A stretch of 43,414 nucleotides of DNA from Clostridia bacterium (GCA_017626145.1 JAGAJK010000046.1:1-43414); one strand, 5' to 3'; positions 16,041 through 34,442 are shown, counted from the first letter of the stretch. Numbers and translations: made by a program. The notes: generated by a model not told the origin, from the letters alone.

Positions 16041-16075
16041 TGACGGTTATCCATTTGATAACCGTCATATTTTTA
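16041..16075. terminator. Terminator between pyk and the MFS gene
   Basis: TGACGGTTATC, loop CATTT, GATAACCGTCA, followed by TATTTTTATTTT. It ends pyk and, with the A-rich left side, may also serve the converging MFS gene. Confidence 0.85.
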
Positions 16076-17332: not shown

Positions 17333-17354
17333 ATTAGCCTCCAAAATATTGTAT

Positions 17355-17402: not shown

Positions 17403-17435
17403 GGTAAAAACATTCAAAAATGGTAAAATCGTTCA
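17403..17435. promoter_or_regulatory. Direct repeat, candidate AraC-type operator
   Basis: GGTAAAAACATTCA (17403-17416) and GGTAAAATCGTTCA (17422-17435) match at 12 of 14 positions with a 19-base offset, close to two helical turns as in AraC half-site pairs. It lies in the leader of the AraC gene, about 70 bases upstream of the MFS start. Confidence 0.45.
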
Positions 17436-17452
17436 TTTATAACGGAGGAATT

Positions 17453-19182: not shown

Positions 19183-19938
19183 ATGAATTTTGAAAATAAA
19201 ACTGCAATTGTAACAGGTGCCGCATCAGGGATGGGACTTTTGTTTGCACAGAATTTTGCCTCTCTTGGCGGAAATGTAATAATGTGTGATGTTAACGAAG
19301 CTGTTTTAAAAGAAAAAGCAGATGAAATAAACTTAAAAAATAATGGTAAAGCTGTAGGCGTTATTTGCGACGTAAGAGATTATGAAAATGTATGTAATGC
19401 TCGAGATAAGGCAATAGAAATCTTCGGTAGTATTGATTTTGTGCTTAACTTTGCAGGCGGGACGGCAAGAAGAGTATTAAATGTCGGTTGGGATGCTGAT
19501 TTTCCCGATGTACCTATTGATGTTTTTGACTGGGGAATTGATGTGAATTTAAAAGGACCTTTTTATTTTGCACACGCTGTGTTAAAGCAAATGCGTGAAC
19601 AAAAAAGCGGTCTTATAATAAATATTGGCTCAATTACAGGCGCAGAAGGTGATGGGCAGGGGATGGATTATTCTACTGCAAAAGCAGGACTTATGTACGG
19701 ACTTACAAAATCAATAGCCCAGTACGGTTCAAAATATAATATAAGATGCGTTTGTATCTCGCCGGGACCCGTTTTAACAAGAGAAGCTATGGCTAATATG
19801 AAAACCCTTTTAGGAAGAGCTGCCGAGCCTCAGGAAATAATTGACCTTATATTATTCATAATGTCCGACAAGGGACAGTTTATAAACGGAGAAAATATAA
19901 TGATAGATGGCGGAAGAGCGGCAATGGGGAGAGCTTAA
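19183..19938 (+). CDS. SDR-family oxidoreductase
   Basis: The 251-residue protein is a classical short-chain dehydrogenase: TGAASGMG cofactor loop near residue 12, CDVNE after strand 2 (Asp, favouring NAD), NFAGG in place of the usual NNAG, catalytic Ser in IGSITG and YSTAK (Tyr-x-x-x-Lys) near residue 158, and a C-terminal GENIMIDGG. Such enzymes oxidise a secondary alcohol of a sugar, polyol or acid. The ATG at 19183 has GGAG upstream; the longer frame starting at 19120 would include the promoter region. It begins enzyme set A and ends one base before the next gene's ATG. Confidence 0.92.
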   Translation: MNFENKTAIVTGAASGMGLLFAQNFASLGGNVIMCDVNEAVLKEKADEINLKNNGKAVGVICDVRDYENVCNARDKAIEIFGSIDFVLNFAGGTARRVLNVGWDADFPDVPIDVFDWGIDVNLKGPFYFAHAVLKQMREQKSGLIINIGSITGAEGDGQGMDYSTAKAGLMYGLTKSIAQYGSKYNIRCVCISPGPVLTREAMANMKTLLGRAAEPQEIIDLILFIMSDKGQFINGENIMIDGGRAAMGRA

Positions 19939-19939
19939 T

Positions 19940-20701
19940 ATGAATAAAACATTTTTAAAATATGATAAACCTACACTTACAACTATGGTTCAGGCGGATA
20001 ATCCCGACAGAATTAAAGAATTAATAGATAAATCAAATCCTTTGGGTGCTGAAGCTTTTGGTATGCAATTTTGCAGAATGAAGGAAGAATACAGGAATAA
20101 AGAAACATATAAAATGCTGTTTTCTTACGCAGGTGAAAAGCCTGTCTATGTAACAAATTATCGATATGAAAAGAATAACCTGAAAAAAGACCAACAACTC
20201 GCAGATGAATTAGTTGAGTTTGCAGAATGCGGAGCTACTCTTTGTGACGTTATGGGTGATATTTTTGATAAACAGCCCGGCGAACTTACGATGGACGAAA
20301 ATGCAGTTAAAAAACAAATTAAATTAATAGATGAGTTACATAATGCAGGGGCTGAAGTTTTAATGTCATCACACGTTTTCAAGTTTACCCCTGCAGAAAG
20401 AGTTCTGAAAATTGCACTCGAACATCAACGACGCGGTGCAGATATCTGTAAAATCGTAACAGGTGCGGAAACAATGGAACAGCAGATTGAAAATTTAAGA
20501 ATTATTAATATGCTTAAAGAAAATCTTGAAATACCGTTTCTCTTTCTATGTGGCGGTGAATGCAATATATTAAGAAGAATCGGCGGAAATTTAGGCTGTT
20601 GTATGTACTTGTGCGTATACGAATACGATGAATTTTCAACGAACAGTCAGCCAATTCTAAAAGAACTGAAAGCAATCCGTGATAATTTCTTTACTGCATA
20701 A
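19940..20701 (+). CDS. Type I 3-dehydroquinase-like protein (set A)
   Basis: The 253-residue protein aligns by eye with type I 3-dehydroquinate dehydratase (AroD), a TIM barrel that removes water from a ring ketone through a lysine Schiff base. Counterparts of the catalytic His (VLMSSHVFKFTP) and Schiff-base Lys (GADICKIVT) are present. So are an Arg (CNILRRIG), the Gln of the lid (TNSQPI) and the Arg of the TNYRY strand. The usual EWRVD substrate-binding strand reads GMQFCRM, so the ligand probably differs from dehydroquinate. It sits among sugar or polyol dehydrogenases, not shikimate genes. The 3' end overlaps the converging AraC gene by 11 bases. A catabolic dehydratase role is inferred. 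Confidence 0.75.
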   Translation: MNKTFLKYDKPTLTTMVQADNPDRIKELIDKSNPLGAEAFGMQFCRMKEEYRNKETYKMLFSYAGEKPVYVTNYRYEKNNLKKDQQLADELVEFAECGATLCDVMGDIFDKQPGELTMDENAVKKQIKLIDELHNAGAEVLMSSHVFKFTPAERVLKIALEHQRRGADICKIVTGAETMEQQIENLRIINMLKENLEIPFLFLCGGECNILRRIGGNLGCCMYLCVYEYDEFSTNSQPILKELKAIRDNFFTA

Positions 20702-21455
20702 AAGCCTCTTTTCGTATCTGAAGCGGTGTTTTTCCCGTGTGTTTTTTGAATATTTTTCTGAAATAGGATGATGAACTGAACTGCAATTTTGAACTGATTT
20801 CTTCAACCGAAAGGCTTGTTATAGTAAGATATTCTGTAGCCTTTTCACACATAATCTGTTGTTTCATTTCATTTGGAGATTTGTTCAGATTCTGAGAAAA
20901 AACATTGTAAAGTGTAGCCTCACTTACATTACAGTATGAAGCTATATCGCGCACTTGATAGTTTATGTTCAAATACATAAAATCAAGAGCCTTTTCAATT
21001 AAAAGCTCGTTATGAGTTATTTTTCTTTCCATAACAGGAATAACTCTGTCTAAAAATTCATAAAACAGACTTACTGTTTTGCAGTTTGTGGTTCGTTCTT
21101 TTATAAATTCACGAAGCAGGTTTTTATCATCTTCGGTGCATTTGATTTTTTGAAGAGAGTATTTTACTGATTCAGGTAGCGGTAAATTGTCAACGCCTAA
21201 AGATAAAAATTCAATTTCTCCGTTTTTGTCTGTGAACCAATGTGACTGATACAGTTGATTTTTGGGTATAAAGAAAGCATCGTTCTCTTTTGCATTAATT
21301 ACAGAGTTTCGGCTTTTAAGAGTAACCGTGCCTTTAAACATCATTCCGATAAAATATTTAGGAGAACCATTATTTTTAGAGTTATCGGTTATGTAGTTTT
21401 TTGTGTGATGATATATGTTAAAAGAAAACATTTTAGAGAATTCTGTATTATTCAT
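20691..21455 (-). CDS. AraC-family transcriptional regulator
   Basis: The 254-residue protein has a cupin-like sensor (KYFIGMMFKGTVTLKSRN, FFIPKNQLYQSHW) and a C-terminal AraC domain (NVSEATLYNVFSQNLNKSPNEMK and LQFSSSSYFRKIFKKHTGKTPLQIRK). It is placed between the two halves of enzyme set A, divergent from the MDR gene at 21559 and tail-to-tail with the dehydroquinase-like gene. It probably controls the 21559-26127 run. GGAAGGTT precedes the ATG as ribosome binding site. Confidence 0.9.
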   Translation of the reverse strand: MNNTEFSKMFSFNIYHHTKNYITDNSKNNGSPKYFIGMMFKGTVTLKSRNSVINAKENDAFFIPKNQLYQSHWFTDKNGEIEFLSLGVDNLPLPESVKYSLQKIKCTEDDKNLLREFIKERTTNCKTVSLFYEFLDRVIPVMERKITHNELLIEKALDFMYLNINYQVRDIASYCNVSEATLYNVFSQNLNKSPNEMKQQIMCEKATEYLTITSLSVEEISSKLQFSSSSYFRKIFKKHTGKTPLQIRKEAFMQ

Positions 21456-21511
21456 AATAAACCTTCCTGCAATCTTTATAGAATTTTACCTCTTTTTTAT
21501 AGTATAGTATA

Positions 21512-21540
21512 TTGATATATGTTTCGTCAAGAGTTAAAAT
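21512..21540 (+). promoter_or_regulatory. Promoter of the MDR-Gfo-SDR-QOR run in set A
   Basis: TTGATA (21512-21517), 17 bases, TAAAAT (21535-21540), in the divergent region next to an AraC gene. Confidence 0.6.
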
Positions 21541-21558
21541 GAATTTGAGGTGATTTAG

Positions 21559-22578
21559 TTGAAAAGCAGAACAATCGTTTTTACAGAAGCGTATAAAGCT
21601 GAATTAATTGAAAAAGATTTAAGAGAAATGGGCGACGATGATGTTTTAGTAAAAACAATGGTTACATCAATAAGCAGCGGAACAGAAAGGGCAAATTATA
21701 TTGGTGATCCTAATGTAAGTATAACTGACAGCGGCGATGTAGCAATATTCCCAAGAATAGTTGGATACAGTGCTGCAGGTATAGTTGAAAAGATTGGTGA
21801 AAATGTAACTAATGTTAAAGTCGGCGACAGAGTGGCAATAACAGGAAGTATACACAGCGAGTATCTGGTTATGGGCAAAAACGATGTTCATAAAATTGAA
21901 AGTGATAGTATAAGCTTCAGCGAAGCGGCGCTTTGGTATATATCATGTTTTCCTTCTGCGGCAATAAGAAAGTGCCGTCTTGAGTTCGGTGAATCGGCAA
22001 TAGTTATGGGAATGGGTGTACTTGGTATGATAGGAGTAAAGCTTTTATCTGCGGCAGGCGCAGCACCCATAATTGCTGTTGACCCTGATCCGGTTAAAAG
22101 AGAAAAAGCACTTGAAATAGGAGCAGATTTTGCTTTTGACCCATTTGAAAATGATTTTGTCGAAAAAGTAAAAGAAGTAACCGATGGCGGAGTAAATGTT
22201 GCAATAGAAGTAACGGGAAATGGCAAAGCTCTTGACCAGGTTCTTGATTGCATGAAACGTTTTGGCAGAGTTGCACTTTTAGGTTGCACCCGTAACAGCG
22301 ATTTTACAATAGATTATTACCGTAAGGTTCACGGCCCGGGAATTACGTTGATAGGAGCACACACAATGGCTCGTCCTTCAAAAGAATCTTATCCCGGATG
22401 GTGGTGTATTAAAGATGAAATCAAAGGAATCCAGAATTTGACAAGATGTAATAGGCTTAGTTTGTCAGATATGGTTGAAGAACTTCACGATCCTATGGAT
22501 GCTCAAAAGGTTTACACACGACTTGCAAATGAAAAAACATTTCCCATTACTCAGTTTAATTGGGAGGAATTAAAATGA
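21559..22578 (+). CDS. Medium-chain dehydrogenase (Tdh/BchC-like), zinc ligand absent (set A)
   Basis: The 339-residue protein belongs to the medium-chain dehydrogenase superfamily. The catalytic domain has SISSGTER where zinc enzymes have a Cys-Gly-Ser/Thr-Asp motif, and the structural-zinc cysteine loop is missing. The NAD(P)-binding half is intact (GMGVLGMIG near residue 151, VDPDPVKRE with the acidic residue expected for NAD). It resembles the SGTE group of dehydrogenases that includes BchC and bi-domain oxidoreductases, so it likely interconverts a hydroxyl and a ketone. The start is TTG with GAGGTG upstream. Its stop overlaps the next ATG (ATGA). A close paralogue is at 27907. Confidence 0.85.
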   Translation: MKSRTIVFTEAYKAELIEKDLREMGDDDVLVKTMVTSISSGTERANYIGDPNVSITDSGDVAIFPRIVGYSAAGIVEKIGENVTNVKVGDRVAITGSIHSEYLVMGKNDVHKIESDSISFSEAALWYISCFPSAAIRKCRLEFGESAIVMGMGVLGMIGVKLLSAAGAAPIIAVDPDPVKREKALEIGADFAFDPFENDFVEKVKEVTDGGVNVAIEVTGNGKALDQVLDCMKRFGRVALLGCTRNSDFTIDYYRKVHGPGITLIGAHTMARPSKESYPGWWCIKDEIKGIQNLTRCNRLSLSDMVEELHDPMDAQKVYTRLANEKTFPITQFNWEELK

Positions 22579-23579
22579 AAAAAATTAAAATTGCACAAAT
22601 AGGTACAAGTAGAAACAGTCACGGACAAGGCATTTTTGATTCGCTGAAACAAAACGAAGCGGTGTTTGATATAGTAGGTTATACATTGCCTGAAAACGAA
22701 AGAGAAAAATTTCCTGAAATGATGAAAGTATTTGAAGGATACAAGGAAATGACTCTTGATGAAATATTAAATGATCCGGGAATTGAAGCAGTAGCGGTTG
22801 AAACCGAAGAAATATATTTAACTAAATATGCAATTTTAGCGGCTGAACATAAAAAGCATATACATATGGAAAAACCCGGTGGAACAAATCTTGTTGATTT
22901 TGAAAAGCTTATTTCTCTTGTGAAAGAAAATAATCTTGTTTTTCATATAGGATATATGTACAGATATAATCCGTTTGTAATTGATTTACTTGAACAGGTT
23001 AAAAAAGGAGAACTTGGCGAAATTATAAGCGTTGAGGCACAGATGAACTGCAGTCATCCTATCCCGACAAGAAATTGGCTCAAAACGTTCAAAGGCGGAA
23101 TGATGTTTTTCCTTGGATGTCATTTGATTGACTTGATTTTGAAAATACAAGGACAGCCTGAAAGAATTATACCGTTAAACAAATGCTGTAATCTTGATGC
23201 TGATTCAGAAGATTTCGGTATGGCTGTATTTGAATATAAAAACGGAGTATCCTTTGCAAAAGCTTCGGCAAATGAGCTTGGCGGTTTTGCACGACGTCAG
23301 CTCGTGGTTAGCGGTTCTAAAAAGACGGTTGAGTTAAAGCCTCTTGAAATGTATAGCAGACCCGAAGGAAGCACTGTGCTTTATACCGAAAAAATGGAAT
23401 ACACAAAACCCGGCTGGCTTGAATTTGGTGAAGAAAGCAGAAGTGAATGGTTCCATCGTTTTAACTTTATGATGGCAACTTTCGGTAGTATGGTAAGAGG
23501 TGAAATTGAAAATCCAAATACACCTGATTATGAATTGGAACTTTATAAAACAATCTTAAAAGCTTGCGGGGTGGAGTAA
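22575..23579 (+). CDS. Gfo/Idh/MocA family oxidoreductase (set A)
   Basis: The 334-residue protein has an N-terminal Rossmann domain with an unusual cofactor loop (IAQIGTSRNSHGQ), the family EKP motif in HIHMEKPGG near residue 95, and a C-terminal GFO_IDH_MocA domain (GYMYRYNPFVIDLLEQ, then GGMMFFLGCHLIDLIL with the likely catalytic His). Family members oxidise or reduce ring hydroxyls of inositols, sugars and glycosides with NAD(P). It is coupled to the MDR gene by a 4-base overlap. Its paralogue at 28908 has the equivalent loop GIGHNHGEGK. Confidence 0.9.
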   Translation: MKKIKIAQIGTSRNSHGQGIFDSLKQNEAVFDIVGYTLPENEREKFPEMMKVFEGYKEMTLDEILNDPGIEAVAVETEEIYLTKYAILAAEHKKHIHMEKPGGTNLVDFEKLISLVKENNLVFHIGYMYRYNPFVIDLLEQVKKGELGEIISVEAQMNCSHPIPTRNWLKTFKGGMMFFLGCHLIDLILKIQGQPERIIPLNKCCNLDADSEDFGMAVFEYKNGVSFAKASANELGGFARRQLVVSGSKKTVELKPLEMYSRPEGSTVLYTEKMEYTKPGWLEFGEESRSEWFHRFNFMMATFGSMVRGEIENPNTPDYELELYKTILKACGVE

Positions 23580-23580
23580 G

Positions 23581-24531
23581 ATGAGCAGAAAAGTATTACT
23601 TATAGGAGGCGGCGGAACACTTGGAACATATACAGCTGAAGAATTATTGCACCTTGGTTACAGTGTTGACGTAATCTGCCTTGAAGACAAAGTTTCTGAT
23701 AATGAAAATTTAAGATTTTTCAAAGGAAAAGCAACTTTGGAATTTTTAACAGAGTTTCTTTTGAAAAATCATTATGATGGCATAGTTAATTTTATCCATT
23801 ATCCGCTTTTTGAAGAATATAAGCCTGTTCACAAACTTCTTTCCAAAAATACAGAGCATTTAATATTTTTATCTTCATACAGGGTATATGCTGAATCCAA
23901 CGGCCCCATAACAGAAGAAACTCCTCATCTTCTTGATGTAACAACGGATAAAGAATTTCTTGAAAATGAATGGTATGCTTTGTCAAAAGCTAAAGCCGAA
24001 AAATTTATCCGCAATGAATCGGAGACAAACAATTGGACAATAGTTCGTCCTGTTATATCTTTTTCAGCGGATCGTCTTGATGTTGTTACAGTAAGTGGTC
24101 ACATAGTTTATGATTACGCAAAGGAAGGAAAAACTGTATATCTGCCTGATAAAGCTAAAGAAGTTGTTGCAGGTCTTGACTGGGCAGGAAATTCAGGAAA
24201 GCTTATAGCAAACCTTTTGTTCAAAAAAGAGGCATATGGCGAAGCTTATACAATTTCGTCTGCTCAAAGATACACTTGGGGTGAAATTGCCGATATGTAT
24301 ACAGAAATTCTGGGCACAAAGTTCTGCTGGATTGATTCTGATGAGTGGCTGTCAAACGAAGAATATACAGGCAACAATAAATGGGCAGTTTTGTATGACA
24401 GATTCTTTAACAGAGAAATTGATAACAGTAAGGTATTAAAGGTAACAGAACTTACTGAAAAAGATTTTAAGCCAATTAAAGAAGGAATAAAAATTGAAAT
24501 AAACAGATTGAAGGAGAATTATAAAAAATGA
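23581..24531 (+). CDS. Extended SDR / NAD-dependent epimerase-dehydratase family protein (set A)
   Basis: The 316-residue protein is an extended short-chain dehydrogenase: GGGGTLGTY cofactor loop near residue 9, LSSYRVYA with the catalytic-type Ser, and YALSKAKAE (Tyr-x-x-x-Lys) near residue 137. The C-terminal half continues with IVRPV and DWAGNSGKLIANLLF, as in sugar-nucleotide epimerases and related reductases. It starts one base after the stop of the Gfo gene and overlaps the next gene by 4 bases. The substrate is unknown; an epimerase, dehydratase or reductase role would all fit. Confidence 0.85.
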   Translation: MSRKVLLIGGGGTLGTYTAEELLHLGYSVDVICLEDKVSDNENLRFFKGKATLEFLTEFLLKNHYDGIVNFIHYPLFEEYKPVHKLLSKNTEHLIFLSSYRVYAESNGPITEETPHLLDVTTDKEFLENEWYALSKAKAEKFIRNESETNNWTIVRPVISFSADRLDVVTVSGHIVYDYAKEGKTVYLPDKAKEVVAGLDWAGNSGKLIANLLFKKEAYGEAYTISSAQRYTWGEIADMYTEILGTKFCWIDSDEWLSNEEYTGNNKWAVLYDRFFNREIDNSKVLKVTELTEKDFKPIKEGIKIEINRLKENYKK

Positions 24532-25511
24532 AAGCAATACTTGTTAATGATGACAGAAGTTTAAGATGGGACTTTGTTCCTGATCCTGTAATGGGAACAG
24601 AGGACTGTCTTGTTAAAATTGAAGCTGCAGCACTTAACCGTGCAGACTTAATGCAGAGAGAAGGGGATTATCCACCACCTCCGGGATGCCCTGAATGGAT
24701 GGGACTTGAAATTGCAGGAACAATTGTTGAGGTTGGGGAAGAAGCTTCAAAAAAATCAAACTGGAAGGTTGGCGACAAGGTTTGTGCCCTTTTAGGTGGT
24801 GGCGGTTATGCCGAGTACGTTAACGTAAAATATGATATGCTTATGCCGGTTCCCGAAAACTGCTCAATGGTAGAAGCCGCGGCAATTCCTGAAGCTTTTG
24901 CAACAGCTTACCTTAACCTTTTCATCGAAGGCGGTCTTAAAGAGGGTAATACTCTTTTAATGAATGCAGGTGCAAGCGGTCTTGCAAGTGTAATTATTCC
25001 TATGGCTAAAGCATTCGGTGCAAGAGTTATTACAACTGTTCTTTCAGATGAATTAAAAGAATCAATCAAGCACCTGAACGCTGATGTTGTAGTTAACACA
25101 ACAAAAGAAAATATTGCTGATGTATTAAAAAAGGAACTGGAAAACGGTCACGGTGTTGATGTTGCAATTGACTGTCTTGGTGGTGAAATTATGGGTCAGT
25201 GTATCCATTATTTAACTCACGGTGCACGCTGGATTATGATTGCCGCTTTAGCAGGAACAAAAACACAGATAGACCTTAAAAATATCTATGTAAGAAATGT
25301 TCGTATCATCGGAAGTACACTTCGTTCAAGAACTCCCGAAATGAAAGCATTCATTCTTTCAGAGCTTGTTAAAAATGTATTTCCGAAAATTGCTACCGGT
25401 GAAGTTAAACCTACAATTTACAAAACACTTCCTATAACAGAGGCAGAGGCTGCCCACGATATCCTTTATAAGGGTCAGAATGTAGGTAAGGTTGTTTTAA
25501 CACTTGACTGA
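24528..25511 (+). CDS. Quinone oxidoreductase-like MDR, PIG3 type (set A)
   Basis: The 327-residue protein is a zinc-free medium-chain reductase. Signatures are LNRADLMQREGDYPPPPGC near residue 38, LGGGGYAEYV, PEAFATAYLNLF, MNAGASGLASV (cofactor loop near 146) and a C-terminal YKTLPITEAEAAHDIL. PIG3/QOR enzymes reduce quinones or alpha,beta-unsaturated ketones with NADPH. In this cluster it could reduce an enone formed by the dehydroquinase-like protein, which is inference. A strongly similar paralogue is at 32127. Confidence 0.88.
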   Translation: MKAILVNDDRSLRWDFVPDPVMGTEDCLVKIEAAALNRADLMQREGDYPPPPGCPEWMGLEIAGTIVEVGEEASKKSNWKVGDKVCALLGGGGYAEYVNVKYDMLMPVPENCSMVEAAAIPEAFATAYLNLFIEGGLKEGNTLLMNAGASGLASVIIPMAKAFGARVITTVLSDELKESIKHLNADVVVNTTKENIADVLKKELENGHGVDVAIDCLGGEIMGQCIHYLTHGARWIMIAALAGTKTQIDLKNIYVRNVRIIGSTLRSRTPEMKAFILSELVKNVFPKIATGEVKPTIYKTLPITEAEAAHDILYKGQNVGKVVLTLD

Positions 25512-25512
25512 T

Positions 25513-26127
25513 ATGAGTATAGACATAATACCTGTAAAATATGCAGAATCCACACTTCCTGAAAGCATGGTGTTTCAAGGTGGAGCTTCTGATAAAAAAT
25601 ATCCTATCGATTTTATTCTGTATCTATTAAAAACAAAGGAAAAGCTAATCTTAATTGATGCAGGCTGTGATACTTTACCCGGTTTTGTTTTAACTAATTT
25701 CAAAGGCGTTGTAAAAGCACTTGAGGAAACAGGCTTTAAAGTAACGGATATTACAGATGTAATAATTACTCATTCACACCACGACCATATTGAAGGCATA
25801 AAGTATTTTAAAAATGCTTTAATACATATTCAAAAGGACGAATTGTCAGGGAAATATATTAACGATGATTTTAAAGTAAATATATTTGATGATGAATTTA
25901 CTGTTTGCGACGGTGTGAAAATCGTAAAAGTGGGGGGACACAGCAAAGGCTCCTGCATTGTTGAAGTTAACGAAACAAACATATTCGTAGGGGATGAATG
26001 CTATATAAGCGACTGTATTACCGAGAAAAGACCAACAGGCGCATCCGTTTGCCCTGAAAAAAGCAAGGCATTTATCGAAAAATACAGTAATCCCAAATAC
26101 AAACTCTATTTTGCTCACAGTAAATAA
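25513..26127 (+). CDS. MBL-fold metallo-hydrolase, lactonase-like (set A)
   Basis: The 204-residue protein has the metallo-beta-lactamase metal motif HSHHDH (near residue 82), a GGHSKGS segment with the third-site His, the bridging Asp in VGDECY, and a final His in YFAHSK. The arrangement resembles N-acyl homoserine lactonases (AHL lactonase/AiiA group), so hydrolysis of a lactone made by the dehydrogenases is a reasonable guess. The ATG at 25513 is preferred; a TTG at 25504 overlapping the previous stop is possible. It ends set A. Confidence 0.85.
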   Translation: MSIDIIPVKYAESTLPESMVFQGGASDKKYPIDFILYLLKTKEKLILIDAGCDTLPGFVLTNFKGVVKALEETGFKVTDITDVIITHSHHDHIEGIKYFKNALIHIQKDELSGKYINDDFKVNIFDDEFTVCDGVKIVKVGGHSKGSCIVEVNETNIFVGDECYISDCITEKRPTGASVCPEKSKAFIEKYSNPKYKLYFAHSK

Positions 26128-26145
26128 AAAACTATAAAAATATGT

Positions 26146-26186
26146 AAAAACAGCGACATAATCAAGTAATTATGTCGCTGTTTTTT
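26146..26186 (+). terminator. Terminator of enzyme set A
   Basis: AAACAGCGACATAAT, loop CAAGTA, ATTATGTCGCTGTTT followed by TTT. The right arm includes the last codons of the converging AraC gene. Confidence 0.85.
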
Positions 26187-26943
26187 GATATTTTGTGGGT
26201 GAAATACCTGTATGTTTTTTAAACGCTCTTGAAAAATCATAAATGTTCAAATAGCCTAAGGATTCAGCAATATCGGTGACACTTCCGTAATCACTTTTAA
26301 GCATTTCCTTAGCTTTTTTTATACGCAACTTGTGTACATATGAAATGGGAGAAACACCGCAAACCTCTGTAAACAGTTTTCTGAAATATACAGTAGACAT
26401 ACCTGTAAGGTGTGCGAGCTCATCGTTTGTAATGTTTTTATTATAATTTTTGGCAATGTAATCTATTGCAGGATTGATTTTACTAAGTTTTCCGGTAGGC
26501 AAATATGCTTTTTGTGAAGATTGCAACAACATTATCAGGATAGAATATGTATCACGGATGCTTTCTATTTCATACATTTGTTTTTTTATGGTTCTCTTAT
26601 ATTCCAATTCCTTAAAAATCTTTAAAATTTTATCGCTGTTTTTAACAGGAAAACTATAAATGTCATTGCAGACAATTTTACTATCAAATTCGATAATTGA
26701 AAAGTGTCCGGAGTGAGTACAGTGCCATTCATACGAACATCCTTTTGGCAAAATAACAAGATTATGTATATTTGATATAAAGGATTTTCCTTCCGAAACA
26801 TATGTGGTTTCCCCTTCATATTTAACAACAATTGCCCAGCATGGACGGTTATTTCTTTTGGCTTTTGTGTTTTTTTCTGTATATATGGTAGTTGCAGAAT
26901 AAACTTTGGTAATAATCAAATCTGATAAAGATTCACAATTCAA
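26170..26943 (-). CDS. AraC-family transcriptional regulator, probable regulator of enzyme set B
   Basis: The 257-residue protein has an N-terminal sensor of the same kind as the protein at 18283 (CWAIVVKYEGETTYVSEGK, LPKGCSYEW) and a C-terminal AraC domain (GMSTVYFRKLFTEVCGVSPISYV and LGYLNIYDFSRAFKKHTGISPTKYQ). A TTG at 26943 with AAGGTG about 6 bases upstream is the likely start; the frame is open to an ATG at 26994 without a ribosome binding site. It is divergent from the set B operon and faces the inverted repeat at 27007-27030. Confidence 0.88.
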   Translation of the reverse strand: MNCESLSDLIITKVYSATTIYTEKNTKAKRNNRPCWAIVVKYEGETTYVSEGKSFISNIHNLVILPKGCSYEWHCTHSGHFSIIEFDSKIVCNDIYSFPVKNSDKILKIFKELEYKRTIKKQMYEIESIRDTYSILIMLLQSSQKAYLPTGKLSKINPAIDYIAKNYNKNITNDELAHLTGMSTVYFRKLFTEVCGVSPISYVHKLRIKKAKEMLKSDYGSVTDIAESLGYLNIYDFSRAFKKHTGISPTKYQKTAT

Positions 26944-26998
26944 ATATAACACCTTCTTTTGAATAATTATAAATCGAATCGAAAAAAATGTCAATAAT

Positions 26999-27063
26999 TT
27001 AGTATCAAATATGATAAAAATATCATATTTACTATTTAATTTTATTCCAATCTTTTATATAAT
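26999..27063 (+). promoter_or_regulatory. Promoter and inverted-repeat activator site of enzyme set B
   Basis: TTAGTATCAAA (26999-27009, shared with set A) runs into the perfect inverted repeat AAATATGATA-AAAA-TATCATATTT (27007-27030). Five bases later comes a weak -35 (TTTAAT, 27035-27040), 17 bases and TATAAT (27058-27063). A dyad abutting a poor -35 box suits an activator. Confidence 0.6.
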
Positions 27064-27082
27064 AGCAACAAGAGGTGATAAT

Positions 27083-27898
27083 ATGAAAGCATTATCAAAT
27101 TTACAGTCACCGGCTATTGCCGGAGTTATAAGAGAAAAAACTTCAAAATCAGCAATTGCCGAAATTAAGAACTGTATTTATGATGGGGCAGATATGATAG
27201 ATTTACATATGTCGTGCCTTGAAAATAGTGATACGAACACACTTAAAGAAATTATACAATCTTCAAAGTTGCCGATTCTGGCACTTAATTATAACAACAG
27301 ATACGATTGGTCTCCTGCAGGTTTTTCAGAAGAAGAAAGAACGGAAAGCTTTCTTCGTGCGGTAGATGCAGGTGCTGCAGGAATAGATATGCAAGGATAT
27401 ACCTTTCATGCACCGTCAAAACACGGTTTTTGCGGTAATGATAAATATTCTTTTACTAAAGGAAAGCCAAAAGAAATTGTTACAGATGAAGCAATAATTT
27501 CGAAGCAATGTGAGTTTATAGAAAAAATTCATTCTAAAGGTGCAGAGGTTTTACTTTCCTGCCATCCGGGAATACCAATGAACTGTCAGCAGGTTGTTGA
27601 GCTTGCTCTGTTTCTTGAAAAACGTAGTCCCGATATAATAAAAATTGTAACAGCAGCAACTAATGAAGATGAACTTGTTGAAAGCTTTAAAACAATGGTT
27701 GCTCTGAAAAAGGAAGTAAAAACTCCGGTAAGCTATCACGCAAACGGAAAAGAGGGTAGCTTATCAAGAATAATCAATCCCATTTTAGGCGGACAGATAA
27801 TATTTTGTGTTGACAGATTTTCCCAAAGCAGTACAATGGAACAGCTTGATTTGAAAACTGTAAGAACGATAGTTGATAATATAAAAAAAATAATGTGA
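27083..27898 (+). CDS. Type I 3-dehydroquinase-like protein (set B)
   Basis: The 271-residue protein is a distant paralogue of the set A protein at 19940. Counterparts of the AroD catalytic His (LLSCHPG), Schiff-base Lys (DIIKIVTAA), Arg (GSLSRII) and Gln (TMEQLD) are in order, with the strand Arg in NYNNRYDW. The substrate-binding strand EWRVD of AroD reads IDLHMS, and an inserted loop of about 25 residues (near 110-135, AGIDMQGYTFHAPSKHG) is absent from set A. The ligand therefore probably differs. GAGGTG before the ATG at 27083 fixes the start. It opens set B. Confidence 0.72.
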   Translation: MKALSNLQSPAIAGVIREKTSKSAIAEIKNCIYDGADMIDLHMSCLENSDTNTLKEIIQSSKLPILALNYNNRYDWSPAGFSEEERTESFLRAVDAGAAGIDMQGYTFHAPSKHGFCGNDKYSFTKGKPKEIVTDEAIISKQCEFIEKIHSKGAEVLLSCHPGIPMNCQQVVELALFLEKRSPDIIKIVTAATNEDELVESFKTMVALKKEVKTPVSYHANGKEGSLSRIINPILGGQIIFCVDRFSQSSTMEQLDLKTVRTIVDNIKKIM

Positions 27899-27906
27899 GG
27901 TGTGTT

Positions 27907-28908
27907 ATGTTAAATAAACAAATAGTTTTTACAGATATTCATAAGGCGGAGCTTATAGAAAATGACATCGGCAAGGTAAAAGAAAACGAAGTTCTTGCAA
28001 AAATGGAATACACCGTAGTAAGTGGCGGCACTGAAAGAGCCTGTATTTTAGGTATGAACAACACTTCACAAAAATTTCCTATGTCATTGGGCTATTGCGG
28101 TGTGGGATATGTGGAAGAAGTTGGTAAGGATGTAAAAAAAGTGTCGGTAGGCGACAGAGTTTTAATATATCACGGCTGCCATTCTAAATATAATATCCGC
28201 ACCGAAGATGAGATAACAAAGGTCGAAAACGATATCATTTCGTCCCTTGAAGCTGCATTTGTTATCATTGCATCAATGGGGCTTGGCGGAGTAAGAAAGC
28301 TTGAAATAGAGCTTGGTGAGTCTGCTATGGTAATGGGACAAGGGCTACTTGGGATTTTTGCAACGCAGTTTTTAAGACTTTCCGGTGCCAATCCTGTAAT
28401 TGCTGCCGACCTTAATCCTGCAAGACGTGAGCTTGCATTAAAGCTTGGCGCAGATTATGCTTTTGATCCGTCAGACAAAGATTTTGTAGAAAAAGTAAAA
28501 GAAGTTACAAAGGGTAAAGGTGTAAACGGCTGTGTTGAAGTAACAGGCATTGCTCAGGCAATGAATCAGGCACTCCAGTGTGCTTCGTGGATGGGAAGAA
28601 TTTCTTTGTTGGGCTGTACAAGAGTTTCGGACAGTGCAGTTGACTATTATCAACAGGTACATCGTCCCGGAGTTAAACTTATTGGTGCACACAATTTTGT
28701 GAGACCTAAGTATGAATCTTATCCGCACCACTGGACACACCATGACGACTGCAGAGCAATAATTGATATGATAGCGACAAAGCGAATTCAGGTAGAACCA
28801 ATTATTTCCAGAATAGAATCCCCTGTAAACGCACCGCAGATTTATAACGAACTTTGTGATGATAAGAATTTCCCGATAGGAACGGTTTTTGACTGGAGAG
28901 AAATGTAA
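27907..28908 (+). CDS. Medium-chain dehydrogenase, zinc ligand absent (set B)
   Basis: The 333-residue paralogue of the protein at 21559 keeps the SGGTER motif instead of a zinc-binding cysteine, the cofactor loop GQGLLGIF near residue 146 and ADLNPARRE. Long shared segments include LGADYAFDPSDKDFVEKVKEVT and LLGCTR, pointing to a fairly recent duplication. The C-terminal part differs more (ESYPHHWTHHDDCRAI with a histidine cluster), which may reflect a different substrate. GAGGTG stands before the ATG at 27907. Its stop shares one base with the next ATG. Confidence 0.86.
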   Translation: MLNKQIVFTDIHKAELIENDIGKVKENEVLAKMEYTVVSGGTERACILGMNNTSQKFPMSLGYCGVGYVEEVGKDVKKVSVGDRVLIYHGCHSKYNIRTEDEITKVENDIISSLEAAFVIIASMGLGGVRKLEIELGESAMVMGQGLLGIFATQFLRLSGANPVIAADLNPARRELALKLGADYAFDPSDKDFVEKVKEVTKGKGVNGCVEVTGIAQAMNQALQCASWMGRISLLGCTRVSDSAVDYYQQVHRPGVKLIGAHNFVRPKYESYPHHWTHHDDCRAIIDMIATKRIQVEPIISRIESPVNAPQIYNELCDDKNFPIGTVFDWREM

Positions 28909-29921
28909 TGAAAAAAATAAAAATCGGACAACTCGGAATAGGGCATAATCACGGCGAAGGCAAAATGCTTGCAGTACAAAAATTTCCTGAGCTTTTTGAA
29001 GTAGTAGGTTATGCAGAGGGAAATGAAGAGTGGATAAAAAAACGCAGTAGCTTAAAGGGTTACGAGGGATTGAAAAGATATTCAGTTGATGAATTGATTC
29101 AAATGTGTGATGCTTTGCTTATAGAAACAGATGTATGGGATTTAACTGAAACTGCAAAAAAATGTGTGGATGCAGGAAAGCATATACATATGGACAAGCC
29201 TGCAAGCGGCACATTGGAAGAATACAAAAGCTTGTTAGATTCAGCAAAAGCACAAAATCTTATTGTACAGTTAGCATATATGTATCGTTATAATCCGGCG
29301 GTACAGAAATGCTTTGAACTGATAAAAGACGGCAAGATAGGTGAGATTTATTCTATCAATGCTGAAATGAGTACATATCATCCAAAGAATTATAAAAGGT
29401 GGCTCACAAATTTCGGCGGCGGAATTATGTATATATTAGGGTCTCACTTGGTTGACTTAATAGTTTACATCTTGGGAAAACCCGATAAAATAACATCGTT
29501 CCTGAAACACACAAGGTTGGATGACGTTGATTTCCCGGATAATAATCTTGCTGTTCTTGAATACAAAAAAGCATTAGCAAGAGTTTTTGTTTCTTCCGTT
29601 GAGGTTAATGGTTTTGGAAGAAGGCAATTTATGGTATCCGGTAGTAAGGGTACTGTTAATATATGTCCAATTGAGCGCCCGATTACAATGACATATTCCG
29701 ACACATCAATCGCAGACGCAACATATGAGGACAGAAAAATTTTTATTCCTGTTGAAGATGATACTGCCACAGGCAGATATGATGAAATGATGAAAGATTT
29801 TCATGCTTATATCAACGGCACAAAAGAAAACCCTTTTACATACGAGCATGAATTTGCAGTACAAGAGATATTAAGCGAAATAATAGGTGGTGTTAAATTC
29901 TTTGGGAAAAATATTGATTAA
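28908..29921 (+). CDS. Gfo/Idh/MocA family oxidoreductase (set B)
   Basis: The 337-residue paralogue of the protein at 22575 has the cofactor loop GQLGIGHNHGEGK, HIHMDKPASG (Asp replacing Glu of the EKP motif), AYMYRYNPAVQKCFEL and the catalytic-region GGGIMYILGSHLVDLIVYILG. The shared R/YNP and FGRRQ(L/F)(V/M)VSGSK segments tie the two copies together. It probably acts on a ring hydroxyl of the set B substrate. The end overlaps the amidohydrolase gene by about 20 bases, a sign of coupled translation. Confidence 0.9.
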   Translation: MKKIKIGQLGIGHNHGEGKMLAVQKFPELFEVVGYAEGNEEWIKKRSSLKGYEGLKRYSVDELIQMCDALLIETDVWDLTETAKKCVDAGKHIHMDKPASGTLEEYKSLLDSAKAQNLIVQLAYMYRYNPAVQKCFELIKDGKIGEIYSINAEMSTYHPKNYKRWLTNFGGGIMYILGSHLVDLIVYILGKPDKITSFLKHTRLDDVDFPDNNLAVLEYKKALARVFVSSVEVNGFGRRQFMVSGSKGTVNICPIERPITMTYSDTSIADATYEDRKIFIPVEDDTATGRYDEMMKDFHAYINGTKENPFTYEHEFAVQEILSEIIGGVKFFGKNID

Positions 29922-30969
29922 AAATGGAAAAGTATGGGACGGAGAAAGATTTTATTTTGCAGATATTTTAACTGATAACGAAAAAATAAGTAAAATTGCA
30001 GATGATATAGATGAATATGCCGACTTTGTCTATGATGCAACAGATAAAATAGTTTCTCCGGGGCTTGTTGATATTCATGTTCATATGAAAGGTATTGCTT
30101 TGGAAGAATTTGGAATTGAACCTCATATGAGTAGTTTTCCATTCGGTGTTACAGCAGTGAATGATGCAGGAAGCAGTTTGGGAAACAGATTGTTGCTTGA
30201 TTCATTTTCGGTGAAAAATACAGTTTTTGTTTGTGTAGGTATAAGAAACAATCATGCGGATTTTACCGCTACAGAGGAACTATGCAGAAAATACGGAGAT
30301 AAGGCAATAGGAATTAAAGTGTACTTTGATACAACAATTACAGATTGTAGTGATATAACTCCGTTAAGAGAAATTTCGAACTATGCAAAAAAACATAAAT
30401 TAAAAGTTATGGTGCACTGTTCAAATTCGCCTACATCAATGGTGGAAATAGTTGAAGCATTATCAACCGGTGATATACTTACACATATTTATCACGGAGG
30501 TAAGAATTCTTGTACAGAAAACAATTTTGAAGCATTTATGCTTGCAAGGGAAAAGGGGGTTATGCTTGATGCAGGTTTTGCAGGATATGTGCATACTGAT
30601 TTTTTGAATTTTCAAAACTCAATAAATGCAGGCTTTTTGCCTGATACGATAAGTACAGATGTTACACGTTATAGTGCGTATAAACGTGGTGGACGATATG
30701 GTTTGACTATGTGCATGAATATTGCAAAGCATCTCGGTGTAGATGTAGAAGATATATTTCGTTCAGTTACATCAAATCCTGCAAAAGCATTGGGAAAAGA
30801 AAACGAATGGGGACATTTAAAGGTAGGTAGATGTGCTGATATAGCTGTATTTGATTATAAGGATGAAGCTTTTGAGCTGACGGATAATGCAGGACATCAA
30901 ATTATTGGCAACAAAGGATACAGATGTGTGCTTACAGTTGTTGATGGTGAAATAATATACAAAGATTAA
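29902..30969 (+). CDS. Amidohydrolase superfamily metallo-hydrolase, COG3964/dihydroorotase-like (set B)
   Basis: The protein of about 355 residues has the binuclear-metal pattern of the amidohydrolase superfamily. HVHMKG (HxH) lies near residue 56, the carboxylatable lysine in GIKVYFD near 140, His in MVHCSN near 170, His in THIYHGG near 192 and the catalytic Asp in STDVT near 252. The C-terminal beta-strands carry KVGRCADIAVFD. The group includes deacetylases, esterases and dihydroorotase-like enzymes. It takes the place that the MBL hydrolase has in set A. A TTG at 29902 is the likely start; a GTG at 29887 is also in frame, with AGGTGG (29885-29890) upstream of the former. Confidence 0.82.
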   Translation: MGKILIKNGKVWDGERFYFADILTDNEKISKIADDIDEYADFVYDATDKIVSPGLVDIHVHMKGIALEEFGIEPHMSSFPFGVTAVNDAGSSLGNRLLLDSFSVKNTVFVCVGIRNNHADFTATEELCRKYGDKAIGIKVYFDTTITDCSDITPLREISNYAKKHKLKVMVHCSNSPTSMVEIVEALSTGDILTHIYHGGKNSCTENNFEAFMLAREKGVMLDAGFAGYVHTDFLNFQNSINAGFLPDTISTDVTRYSAYKRGGRYGLTMCMNIAKHLGVDVEDIFRSVTSNPAKALGKENEWGHLKVGRCADIAVFDYKDEAFELTDNAGHQIIGNKGYRCVLTVVDGEIIYKD

Positions 30970-30982
30970 AAAGGAGAATAAC

Positions 30983-31021
30983 GTGAAAGGAACTTTCCTG
31001 TTATTGCTTACGGCGTATTAA
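30983..31021 (+). CDS. Possible 12-residue leader peptide in the set B operon
   Basis: AAGGAGA (30971-30976) is well placed before a GTG that opens a 12-codon frame (MKGTFLLLLTAY, stop). Directly after the stop a hairpin with arms CTCTTATC (31023-31030) and GATAAGAG (31045-31052) follows. The arrangement looks like a leader peptide with an RNA structure, but it could be the remnant of a lost gene or chance. No family can be assigned. Confidence 0.3.
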   Translation: MKGTFLLLLTAY

Positions 31022-31022
31022 T

Positions 31023-31052
31023 CTCTTATCATTCGATGTCTGCGGATAAGAG
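31023..31052 (+). other. Intra-operon hairpin before the set B epimerase
   Basis: Arms CTCTTATC and GATAAGAG pair around a 14-base loop; no U-tract follows. It may protect mRNA ends or modulate expression of the two downstream genes. Confidence 0.4.
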
Positions 31053-31101
31053 AATTTAATTAGTATTTGTGCCGACGTATGGCGGCGGAATGGAGATTAA
31101 A

Positions 31102-32109
31102 ATGAGTAAAAATGTATTAGTATTAGGTTCAACAGGCGCTATGGGTCAATATCTTGTACCCTATCTTGCCGATATGGGGTATCGTGTTACAGCAGTATCT
31201 CTTGAAGATGAAAAATCTTATAACAGTAATGTAACTTGTGTAAAAGGAAATGCAAAGGATTTTGTCTTTTTGAATTCTCTGCTTTCGCAGAAGTTTGATG
31301 GTGTCGTAGATTTCATGATATACGGCGGTCATGATTTTGAAAAGTATTACAAATTGTTTTTAGAAAATACAGGGCATTACATCTTCCTTTCATCCTGCCG
31401 TGTTTATGCGAACGAAGAGGTTCCGGTAAAAGAAACATCTCCAAGACTTCTCGATGTGTCAAAAGATAAAGCACTTTTAGCTTCAGATGATTACTGTATT
31501 TATAAAGCAAAGTCCGAAAATTTACTGATGCTGTCCAAATATAATAACTGGACTGTTGTACGTCCTGCGACAACTTTTTCTAAAATGCGTTATCAACTTG
31601 TCACTTTAGAGGCAGCAAATGTTGTGGGCAGAGCAAAAAAAGGAAAAAAAGTGGTTCTTCCGATTCAAGCAAAGAACAAACCTGCAACCCTTTGCTGGGC
31701 AGGTGATGTGTCTAAGATGATTGCTAAGCTCCTCTTTAACGAAGATGCGAAAAGAGAAATTTTTAATGTCTGCTCGTCTGAACACCACACATGGGAAGAA
31801 ATTGCAGAGTACTATCACGATATCGTGGGGCTTGAATATGTTTGGGTGGACAAAGAAGATTATCTTAAAATTATTCACCCCGATGTGGCGGATGGTTGCC
31901 GGTGGCAATTGGATTACGCAAGATTGTTTGATAGAATTACAGATAATTCCAAAGTTTTAAAAGCAACAGGAATGAAGCAAGAAGAACTTATGTCATTATA
32001 TGATTCACTCAAATTGATGGTTGAAGCTGTGCCGGATGGTTACGAGTTTCCGGAAACTGACATCAGCAAACGAATGGATGAATATATAGAGGAAAAGCAT
32101 TTAATTTAG
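31102..32109 (+). CDS. Extended SDR / NAD-dependent epimerase-dehydratase family protein (set B)
   Basis: The 335-residue paralogue of the protein at 23581 shows the cofactor loop LGSTGAMGQY, LSSCRVYA, YCIYKAKSE (Tyr-x-x-x-Lys) near residue 144, VVRPATTF and CWAGDVSKMIAKLLF. The C-terminus is longer than in the set A copy by about 20 residues. GGAG lies before the ATG at 31102. An upstream in-frame GTG at 31069 lacks a site. The gene is separated from the amidohydrolase by 132 bases, the largest gap in this operon. Confidence 0.86.
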   Translation: MSKNVLVLGSTGAMGQYLVPYLADMGYRVTAVSLEDEKSYNSNVTCVKGNAKDFVFLNSLLSQKFDGVVDFMIYGGHDFEKYYKLFLENTGHYIFLSSCRVYANEEVPVKETSPRLLDVSKDKALLASDDYCIYKAKSENLLMLSKYNNWTVVRPATTFSKMRYQLVTLEAANVVGRAKKGKKVVLPIQAKNKPATLCWAGDVSKMIAKLLFNEDAKREIFNVCSSEHHTWEEIAEYYHDIVGLEYVWVDKEDYLKIIHPDVADGCRWQLDYARLFDRITDNSKVLKATGMKQEELMSLYDSLKLMVEAVPDGYEFPETDISKRMDEYIEEKHLI

Positions 32110-32126
32110 AAAGAAGAGGATGCATA

Positions 32127-33113
32127 ATGAAAGCAATGCTTATTAAGGATGAAAAATTAGTTTTATCCGAAGTGGAAAAACCTAATCCCCAAAGCGGAGA
32201 AATATTAATAAAGATATATGCTATAGGCTTAAACAGAGCTGATTTGCTTCAAAAGAAAGGTGCATATCCATCTCCAAAAGGTTGGCCGCAGTGGCCCGGT
32301 CTTGAAGTATCGGGAACTGTTGAAGCTATGGGAGAGGTTGCAAAACAAAAAGGAAGATTTAAAATTGGTGATTCTGTGTGTGCACTTTTAGGTGGAGGCG
32401 GTTATGCCCAGTATGTTTGTGCTCCGGAAGGAATGGTTATGCCAATACCGGAAAACCTGAGCTTTGAACAAGCAGCAACCCTGCCTGAAGCATACGCAAC
32501 CTCATATTTGAATTTATTTTGGGAAGGACACTTAAAGGAGGGACATACTGCTTTTATTCCTGCAGGAGCCAGCGGGCTTGCATCTGTTGCAATTCCAATG
32601 GCGAAAGCTTTTGGCGCAAGGGTAGTCACTTCTGTATTGTCAGATGAAATTGCCGGAAAAATTACACCACTTGGAGCGGATGTGATTATAAATTCCGCTA
32701 AGCAGGATGTTTCGGAAATTTTGAAGCAAGAAGAATTAAATGGTACTCCTGTAAATATGTCAATGGATTGTCTGTGTGGAGAAACACTTGGCAAAAGCCT
32801 TCCATATATGGCAGAAGGCGGATATTGGGTAGTTATTTCAACGCTTGCCGGTACAGAGACAAGCGTTATGTTAAGACCTCTTCTTACTAAAGGTCTTCAT
32901 CTTGTTGGTAGTATGCTTAGAAAACGAACAAGTGAAGAAAAAGCGCTGCTTCTTGCTGAACTTGTAGAAATAGTATGGCCTAAAATTGAAAAAGGCGAAA
33001 TGAAGCCATCAATATATAAGGTTCTGCCTTTGGAAGATGCAAACGAAGCATTGGATATTATAGAAAGAGGAGAAAATATAGGAAAAATTATTTTGCGGGT
33101 ATGCAATGAGTGA
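32127..33113 (+). CDS. Quinone oxidoreductase-like MDR, PIG3 type (set B)
   Basis: The 328-residue paralogue of the protein at 24528 has LNRADLLQKKGAYPSPKG, LGGGGYAQYV, PEAYATSYLNLFWEG, PAGASGLASV and YKVLPLEDANEALDII at corresponding places. No zinc ligands are visible. It is expected to be an NADPH-dependent reductase of an unsaturated ketone or quinone. It is the last gene of set B and is followed by a strong terminator. Confidence 0.88.
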   Translation: MKAMLIKDEKLVLSEVEKPNPQSGEILIKIYAIGLNRADLLQKKGAYPSPKGWPQWPGLEVSGTVEAMGEVAKQKGRFKIGDSVCALLGGGGYAQYVCAPEGMVMPIPENLSFEQAATLPEAYATSYLNLFWEGHLKEGHTAFIPAGASGLASVAIPMAKAFGARVVTSVLSDEIAGKITPLGADVIINSAKQDVSEILKQEELNGTPVNMSMDCLCGETLGKSLPYMAEGGYWVVISTLAGTETSVMLRPLLTKGLHLVGSMLRKRTSEEKALLLAELVEIVWPKIEKGEMKPSIYKVLPLEDANEALDIIERGENIGKIILRVCNE

Positions 33114-33212: not shown

Positions 33213-34442
33213 TTATTCAACGTTTTCGTAAGCTTCCATTTCTCTTACGTCCTCTTCTCTTAATGTAAGGTTAACGTTTTCTTTTTTAAGTCCTTTAATG
33301 TTTCTTCCGTAAATTCCCCAGGCAGGTAGAACTCCGAAATTGTGAAATTCAGGATATCTTGTACCCATCTCCGGAACAGGGGTTTTTTCGTATTCGCTGA
33401 CGCCACCTGCCATTTCAACGTCTATATTTGAAATGGTAACATTTTCAACAGGTGCATTTTTTGTTCCCGAAATACATATACAGCTTTTTGCGTTACCCCA
33501 GGCTTCGCCTTTGTAAAATCTGTCATTTGGTCCGTCAACACAGGTTCCTTTTACATTGTCAATAACAACATTTTTAATTGTTGAAGGAATTTCTCTTTTA
33601 CATCCATGATATTCACGAAGTCTTTCACCGTTGGAAATAAATATAGGACCTGTACATTTGTCAAGTGTTACGTTTCTTATTGTAAGGTTATTAAGGTTAC
33701 CGCCGTCAACGGGAATAATTTTAATTGCACAGCCTTTGCAGTTATAGATATATGTGTTTTCAATAACTACATTTTCAAAATCACCAACAGATTCCGTGCC
33801 GACCTTCAACCCTGCCCAGTCTGTGGATAAGGTGCAGTTGTTTACATAAATATCACGGCAGGGCTTGTCAAGGGTAGATTTTAGGCAAATTGCATCGTCA
33901 CCCGAGTCAATAATACAATCTTCAATTCTGCAGTTTCTGCAGGAGTCAATGTCGATGCCGTCGTTATTGGAATTTACCTTACTTTTAATAAATAAATCTT
34001 TTATATAAATATTATCGCTGTCCATTAAATGGATGTTCCAAGCACCGGAATCGTGAACCTGAATTCCTTCAATATGTACATTGTTACAACGTACAATTCT
34101 TATAAGAAACGGACGTCGGTCGGCAGAAAAGACTTTGCCGTTACCATTAATAATTCCATCACCTGTAATTGAAATATTACTTGCATTCTCGGCATAAATT
34201 AAAGCTTTACCACGTTTCCCGTCAACTGCATCCGTAAATACATCTATATCATCTGAATAAGCATCAAAATCATCAACACCTAAAATCATAGCTCCTTTTT
34301 CAAGAATGATTTTACTGTTATCTCTTAAAAAGAGGGTTGCTGTTCTGTAAAGTCCTTTTTTAAAAACAACTTCTTCACCGGTTTTAGCACAGGAGTCAAT
34401 TATTTCCTGAATTTTGTCTGTTTCATTTGGTGTTATAAGCAT
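33213..34442 (-). CDS. Glycoside hydrolase family 28 protein (polygalacturonase-like)
   Basis: The 409-residue protein forms the right-handed beta-helix of GH28, inverting enzymes that cut galacturonan or related pectin chains. The catalytic region shows NNDGID near residue 163 and SGDDAICLKS near 184, matching the NTDGID and GDD motifs with their Asp residues. ADWAGLKVGT takes the GHG place, and IKI follows at about residue 240 (NCKGCAIKI). No signal peptide is present, so it acts in the cytoplasm on imported oligomers. The promoter is a perfect consensus. It is divergent from dacF and converges on enzyme set B. Confidence 0.88.
   Translation of the reverse strand: MLITPNETDKIQEIIDSCAKTGEEVVFKKGLYRTATLFLRDNSKIILEKGAMILGVDDFDAYSDDIDVFTDAVDGKRGKALIYAENASNISITGDGIINGNGKVFSADRRPFLIRIVRCNNVHIEGIQVHDSGAWNIHLMDSDNIYIKDLFIKSKVNSNNDGIDIDSCRNCRIEDCIIDSGDDAICLKSTLDKPCRDIYVNNCTLSTDWAGLKVGTESVGDFENVVIENTYIYNCKGCAIKIIPVDGGNLNNLTIRNVTLDKCTGPIFISNGERLREYHGCKREIPSTIKNVVIDNVKGTCVDGPNDRFYKGEAWGNAKSCICISGTKNAPVENVTISNIDVEMAGGVSEYEKTPVPEMGTRYPEFHNFGVLPAWGIYGRNIKGLKKENVNLTLREEDVREMEAYENVE

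Follow-up and report, generated by a model that had tools for sequence, protein, structure and literature searches.

Two lineages of a gut clostridial gene module centred on dehydroquinase I-like proteins: a candidate redox-elimination pathway

A 43,414-nucleotide contig of a Clostridia bacterium (GCA_017626145.1, JAGAJK010000046.1:1-43414; hereafter the window) carries, between positions 19,183 and 33,113, two adjacent sets of oxidoreductase genes, each including a gene for a protein similar to type I dehydroquinase (DHQase), the AroD enzyme of aromatic amino acid biosynthesis. This raises the question of what a biosynthetic fold is doing, twice, in such a setting. The contig (C15, G+C ~36%) is one of 98 in a genome of 2.78 Mb with a completeness of 95%. 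We put the probability at roughly one half that the two sets represent separate lineages of a single catabolic module found in anaerobic gut Clostridia, and that the core of each is a lyase of the AroD fold with a new substrate, probably a quinate-like acid.

The two DHQase I-like (DHQ-like) proteins, DHQ1 (19940-20701, plus strand) and DHQ2 (27083-27898, plus strand), are the only matches to PF01487 in the genome. When 293 genomes of the class were scored with PF01487, values fell either at 164-276 bits or at 60 bits and below, with none between, and with the AroD equivalog model TIGR01093 the window proteins reached 38.7 and 38.2 bits against a cut-off of 139.3. In a midpoint-rooted tree of 31 AroD and 103 DHQ-like sequences the two groups separated with supports of 1.0 and 0.875. 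Furthermore, the genome encodes a type II dehydroquinase, AroQ (206 bits), and the DHQ-like lyases are thus not needed for biosynthesis. Judged by these sequence criteria, the DHQ-like proteins are a distinct family and not AroD. Of 391 sampled genomes of the class, 29 gave matches, a small number of which were AroD-like. In a sample of 398 genomes of the phylum, clear members (above 300 bits) were confined to the window genome and, outside the class, to two genomes that share a family, all remaining matches lying at or below ~62 bits, the level that AroD itself reaches with the DHQ-like profile.

An AlphaFold2 model of DHQ1 built on 47 relatives (pLDDT 95.4) is closest to solved type I DHQases (4gug/3m7w; maximum VIA Z 27.8, 235 residues aligned at 2.2 A), the first structure that is not a DHQase following at Z 18.3; the predicted fold is thus the DHQase I TIM barrel. 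Solved DHQase structures assign the imine chemistry to Lys170 and His143 and binding of the C1 carboxylate to Arg213 and Gln236, while the C4 and C5 hydroxyls are read by Glu46, Arg48, Arg82 and Asp114, the last through a water molecule (PMC9902378). Lys170, His143, Asp114 and Arg213 (E. coli numbering) are kept in all 103 DHQ-like relatives and Gln236 in 100; in the window, AroD K170, H143, R213 and Q236 correspond to K171, H145, R212 and Q237 of DHQ1 and to K187, H161, R229 and Q254 of DHQ2. Nearly all 103 relatives have other residues in place of Glu46, Arg48 and Glu86, which are invariant in the 31 AroD sequences; the alignment register at Glu46/Arg48 is uncertain by one or two residues, but the window proteins lack the E-x-R motif in whichever register they are aligned. 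From this pattern we infer that the family performs the same imine chemistry on a substrate that still carries a carboxylate and has another hydroxyl pattern. Arg82 is kept in 92 of the 103 relatives and lost in DHQ2, hence each set probably has a substrate of its own.

The original prediction described, in both sets, the same ordered paralogues, namely a DHQase I-like protein, a zinc-less medium-chain dehydrogenase/reductase (MDR), a Gfo/Idh/MocA oxidoreductase (Gfo), an extended short-chain dehydrogenase/reductase (SDR) and a PIG3-type reductase. All ten genes proved to be intact open reading frames at the starts assigned to them when the frames were checked, with family matches as named. 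Set 1 comprises two units, each headed by an AraC-family regulator gene on the minus strand. In the first (19183-20701), the regulator (18283-19044, HTH_18) faces a classical SDR gene (SDR1, 19183-19938, plus, PF13561) followed by DHQ1, the regulator holding the same position in most related loci. In the second (21559-26127), a regulator gene lying between DHQ1 and MDR1 (20691-21455) faces MDR1 (21559-22578), Gfo1 (22575-23579), extended SDR 1 (23581-24531), PIG3-type reductase 1 (24528-25511; TIGR02824 354.9 bits, cut-off 296.8) and a metallo-beta-lactamase (MBL)-fold hydrolase (25513-26127), all on the plus strand. Set 2 is a single unit (27083-33113) headed by AraC3 (26170-26994, minus), in which DHQ2 is followed on the plus strand by MDR2 (27907-28908), Gfo2 (28908-29921), a dihydroorotase/amidase-like amidohydrolase (29917-30969), extended SDR 2 (31102-32109) and PIG3-type reductase 2 (32127-33113; TIGR02824 333 bits against the same cut-off), with no classical SDR. 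The expectation that each set has a different metallo-hydrolase was confirmed, and that each faces its own AraC gene was accurate for set 2, set 1 having two such units. The genes and order listed for set 1 were right but left out the classical SDR at 19183, which turned out to be the most conserved partner of DHQ-like genes.

Between the sets, identities are 51% for PIG3, 44% for MDR, 39% for extended SDR, 36% for Gfo and 28% for the DHQ-like proteins, with E-values of 1e-20 to 1e-123, and on these alignments the two sets are true paralogues of one another. The only two strong-scoring PIG3-type genes of the whole genome are likewise those of the two sets, which together with the confinement of PF01487 argues that the association is not due to chance. 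A recent tandem duplication can be rejected, since identities are low and both sets are more similar to loci in other places than to one another. The pairing implied by the earlier description as twins thus holds, although the most fitting view is of one module in two old lineages that lie side by side.

The association recurs in other genomes. We collected 254 relatives, located for the most part in Clostridia of herbivore guts, of which the best 80, all of the DHQ1 type, give the loci in named genomes; contig ends cut many operon runs, so partner counts are lower bounds. A classical SDR gene was present in 74 of 82 distinct DHQ-like operons, standing immediately upstream of the DHQ-like gene in 64, and PIG3 in 46 (downstream in 44), whereas 14 operons had both MDR and Gfo, 2 had one of the pair, 12 had MBL and 10 had extended SDR. 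The order SDR, DHQ-like, PIG3 recurs in many genomes. The recurrent layout is an AraC gene on the opposite strand followed by SDR, DHQ-like and, further downstream, PIG3 genes, often with MDR and Gfo and a hydrolase, and the recurrent neighbours within 7 kb at 105 loci were the same enzyme families and opposite-strand AraC genes. The split arrangement of set 1 was also found at loci L074, L083, L097 and L101, and a complete set 2 (AraC, DHQ2, MDR2, Gfo2, amidohydrolase, extended SDR 2 and PIG3) at L040 in G002, a genome of the same family. In a genome of the same family (G002:C53:109591-110402; L004, L006), the DHQ2 relative is spread over two frames with internal stops, reflecting either assembly error or decay.

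The partner enzymes retain features that bear on their possible roles. The classical SDR family conserves N122, S150, Y163 and K167, the MBL family conserves HxHxDH, intact in the window protein, whose closest solved relatives are acylhomoserine lactonases, and the MDRs carry S-x-G-T-E where the zinc cysteine would be. Gfo family members keep Lys100 (EKP-type) and His183, and both window proteins have the EKP-type lysine and the motif histidine. The usual Gfo motif is G-G-x-x-x-D-x-G-x-H; in both window proteins, by our reading of the sequence, Phe and Leu-region residues replace the Asp of D-x-G-x-H, and these two enzymes may thus perform chemistry other than plain dehydrogenation.

The analysis shows which genes are present, their order and its recurrence, the predicted fold and the conserved residues; taken together, these features would fit the following scheme, in which we infer each reaction, its direction and its substrate. 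An SDR, classical or extended, would oxidise a ring hydroxyl to a ketone, with which the Lys170 equivalent of the DHQ-like enzyme would form an imine; aided by the His143 equivalent, the enzyme would then eliminate a beta substituent (water, an acyl or an alkoxy group). The PIG3 reductase would reduce the enone left by elimination, and a dehydrogenase may re-reduce the ketone, the net result being reductive removal of the substituent. MDR and Gfo may act as a pair in a second oxidation or an epimerisation, and the MBL or amidohydrolase may open a lactone or cleave an ester or amide. The redox-elimination logic proposed earlier is thus consistent with the catalytic residues kept in SDR, DHQ-like and MBL proteins and with the recurrent SDR-DHQ-PIG3 order, whereas hydrolysis and the point at which MDR and Gfo act are still guesses. 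The substrate would carry a carboxylate positioned as in 3-dehydroquinate with other ring hydroxyls, as in a quinate-like plant acid or an acyl derivative. Conservation of the carboxylate anchor, Arg213 and Gln236, favours such an acid over neutral cyclitols or glucosides, the plant-eating hosts described below also favour a quinate-like acid, and esterase-type hydrolases in related operons, either GDSL or of class C beta-lactamase fold, are compatible with acylated substrates. The earlier choice between cyclitol, quinate-like and glycoside substrates is thereby narrowed, with sugars still in contention.

Several observations weigh against this reading. The carboxylate argument assumes that Arg213 and Gln236 keep their role, and all reactions of the scheme are read from genes. 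PIG3 is missing from the same run in 36 of the 82 operons, many of which are cut by contig ends, and no acid transporter, nor any other transporter gene, recurs within 7 kb of the related modules at the 105 loci. Gfo1, the extended SDR and the glycoside hydrolases (GH2, GH10, GH29, GH30 and GH39) found in some DHQ-like operons all point to sugars: Gfo1 has DgpA as its top solved match (E 3e-14, narrowly ahead of other Gfo proteins), and the extended SDR has a GalE-like fold closest to sugar-nucleotide epimerases. These same observations make glycoside cleavage a possible, if less favoured, explanation. Here, a Gfo or SDR would make a 3-keto glycoside, or a 4-keto glycoside of an ulosonic acid such as 2-keto-3-deoxyoctonate (KDO) or sialic acid, from which the DHQ-like enzyme would expel the aglycone through its lysine imine; in the latter variant, leaving group and carboxylate sit on one carbon, as in quinate. 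Elimination from 3-keto-glycosides is established chemistry, as puerarin degradation oxidises and then eliminates, with DgpA and the Mn-dependent eliminase DgpBC (PMC10628242). The proposed oxidise-then-eliminate order and a Gfo-family dehydrogenase are shared with this C-glycoside system, in which the place of the Mn-dependent eliminase would here be taken by a lysine-imine lyase of DHQase fold, accompanied by additional PIG3, MDR and SDR enzymes. However, neither an AP-endonuclease-2-type or DUF6379 match, as sought for DgpB/DgpC-type eliminases, nor a DUF1080 family member was found among the proteins of either set, and the glycoside 3-dehydrogenase model NF058561 (BT_2158-type) gave only 24.6 and 37.7 bits against a cut-off of 750. 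Moreover, neutral glycosides offer no carboxylate to the conserved Arg213 and Gln236, an enone reductase would be superfluous if the glycal were rehydrated, and gut Clostridia are so rich in glycoside hydrolases that nearby GH genes are weak evidence. Ulosonic acids would fit both the carboxylate and the sugar lines of evidence.

Cyclitol breakdown akin to the Thermotoga-type inositol pathway, in which Gfo (IolG) and MDR (IolM) dehydrogenases act with a hydrolase, is doubtful. The combination of Gfo, MDR and hydrolase is alike, and among many families the MDRs do match scyllo-inosose dehydrogenase IolM (NF041097, 85.7 and 81.4 bits) and the Gfo proteins IolG (TIGR04380, 58.2 and 55 bits). These scores are nevertheless far under the cut-offs of 450 and 355, the DHQ-like, SDR and PIG3 proteins have no counterpart there, and neutral cyclitols again lack the carboxylate, making such substrates less likely. 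That the DHQ-like proteins are divergent yet ordinary 3-dehydroquinate dehydratases for aromatic amino acid synthesis is very improbable. They do resemble AroD in the TIM barrel, the imine Lys170, His143, Asp114 and the carboxylate-binding Arg213 and Gln236, but they differ in the replaced Glu46, Arg48 and Glu86, the sub-cut-off scores across a score gap, the separate clade and the setting of both copies in SDR/MDR/PIG3 operons, in a genome that has AroQ. On these grounds we rejected ordinary AroD, in agreement with the original prediction. The quinate-like acid thus remains the reading we prefer.

No described pathway had been recognised for this gene set, and our literature search likewise returned no description, with most subscription papers outside its reach; compared in turn with AroD and with Dgp, inositol and aerobic quinate clusters, the module lacks features that were tested for each. 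The enzyme set is apparently widespread and undescribed. Bile acid 7-dehydroxylation (bai) proceeds by SDR oxidation, elimination and enone reduction to a net reductive dehydroxylation, and shares this logic with the proposed scheme, but neither the bai lyase nor the flavin reductase families occur in the sets, and other substrates are expected. Aerobic quinate/shikimate catabolism (qui/qsu) similarly pairs a dehydrogenase with a DHQase acting on a quinate-type acid. Here, no dehydroshikimate dehydratase family was found among the proteins of both sets, which also lack the protocatechuate pathway and have a reductase instead of aromatisation. The pathway logic, to oxidise and then eliminate, is thus known, while the lyase family appears to be new.

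In named genomes, nearly every DHQ-like relative belongs to a metagenome bin from goats, sheep, deer, cattle, yak or buffalo. Neglectibacter timonensis (L116), a named isolate from humans, has a compact SDR-DHQ-SDR-PIG3-esterase version. The AraC3-DHQ2-MDR2 stretch shows 84% DNA identity over 2.2 kb to L037, in a genome of another family whose citrate synthase is only 52% identical to that of the window genome. At L038, DNA identity is 88% in the MDR stretch and 70% in the DHQ stretch, and at L036, DHQ2 is 90% and MDR2 94% identical to the window, followed by Gfo2 at 60%. Along window 26180-30970, identity to these three loci jumps within the module. Such patterns suggest transfer, shuffling and mosaic exchange of module parts between families, although genomes binned from metagenomes call for caution here. 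One single-pattern scan of viral contigs for phage carriage returned no DHQ-like relative.

At about five related loci (L073:1098-4198, L077:2171-5283, L097:2301-5365, L107:1158-3305 and L123:2905-7550), a glycyl radical enzyme adjoins the module, in most cases accompanied by an activase and a separate AraC gene. Four of these enzymes were scanned with NCBIfam and scored far below every characterised family; they may add a radical dehydration step. In the window, an MFS transporter gene of the oxalate/formate-lactate type (16073-17344, minus) with its own AraC gene (17420-18286, plus) lies directly upstream of set 1 and does not recur beside related modules. A GH28 pectin-type hydrolase gene (33213-34442, minus) adjoins set 2, and GH28-like genes occur near a few related modules (L109, L134 and L146). 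Further away, an EF-G/tetracycline-protection-like GTPase is fused to a C-terminal YacP-type NYN domain (1329-3944, minus); as the tet_protect model gave 408 bits against a cut-off of 775, it was not called a resistance gene. Mis-binning of the contig was suggested by pyruvate kinase (14624-16036), which is 73-75% identical to proteins of another family's genomes and only 49% to those of its own, but citrate synthase on the same contig argues the opposite, being closest to its own family (73-74% versus 62-65%). We therefore kept the contig as genuine, which these genes do not prove.

More tentatively, a neofunctionalised AroD family could be the lyase of a new anaerobic pathway by which herbivore-gut Clostridia reductively strip substituents from plant hydroaromatic acids of the quinate/chlorogenate type, a single genome holding several variants that differ in specificity. 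If the proposed module is real, the dehydroquinase fold would have been recruited from biosynthesis to serve a modular catabolic system of the gut, with about 250 occurrences in public genomes, and several families of 'putative oxidoreductases' would gain a function together. It would also provide a testable genetic basis for the handling of plant polyhydroxy acids or glycosides by gut anaerobes, and the version in N. timonensis makes the module testable in culture.

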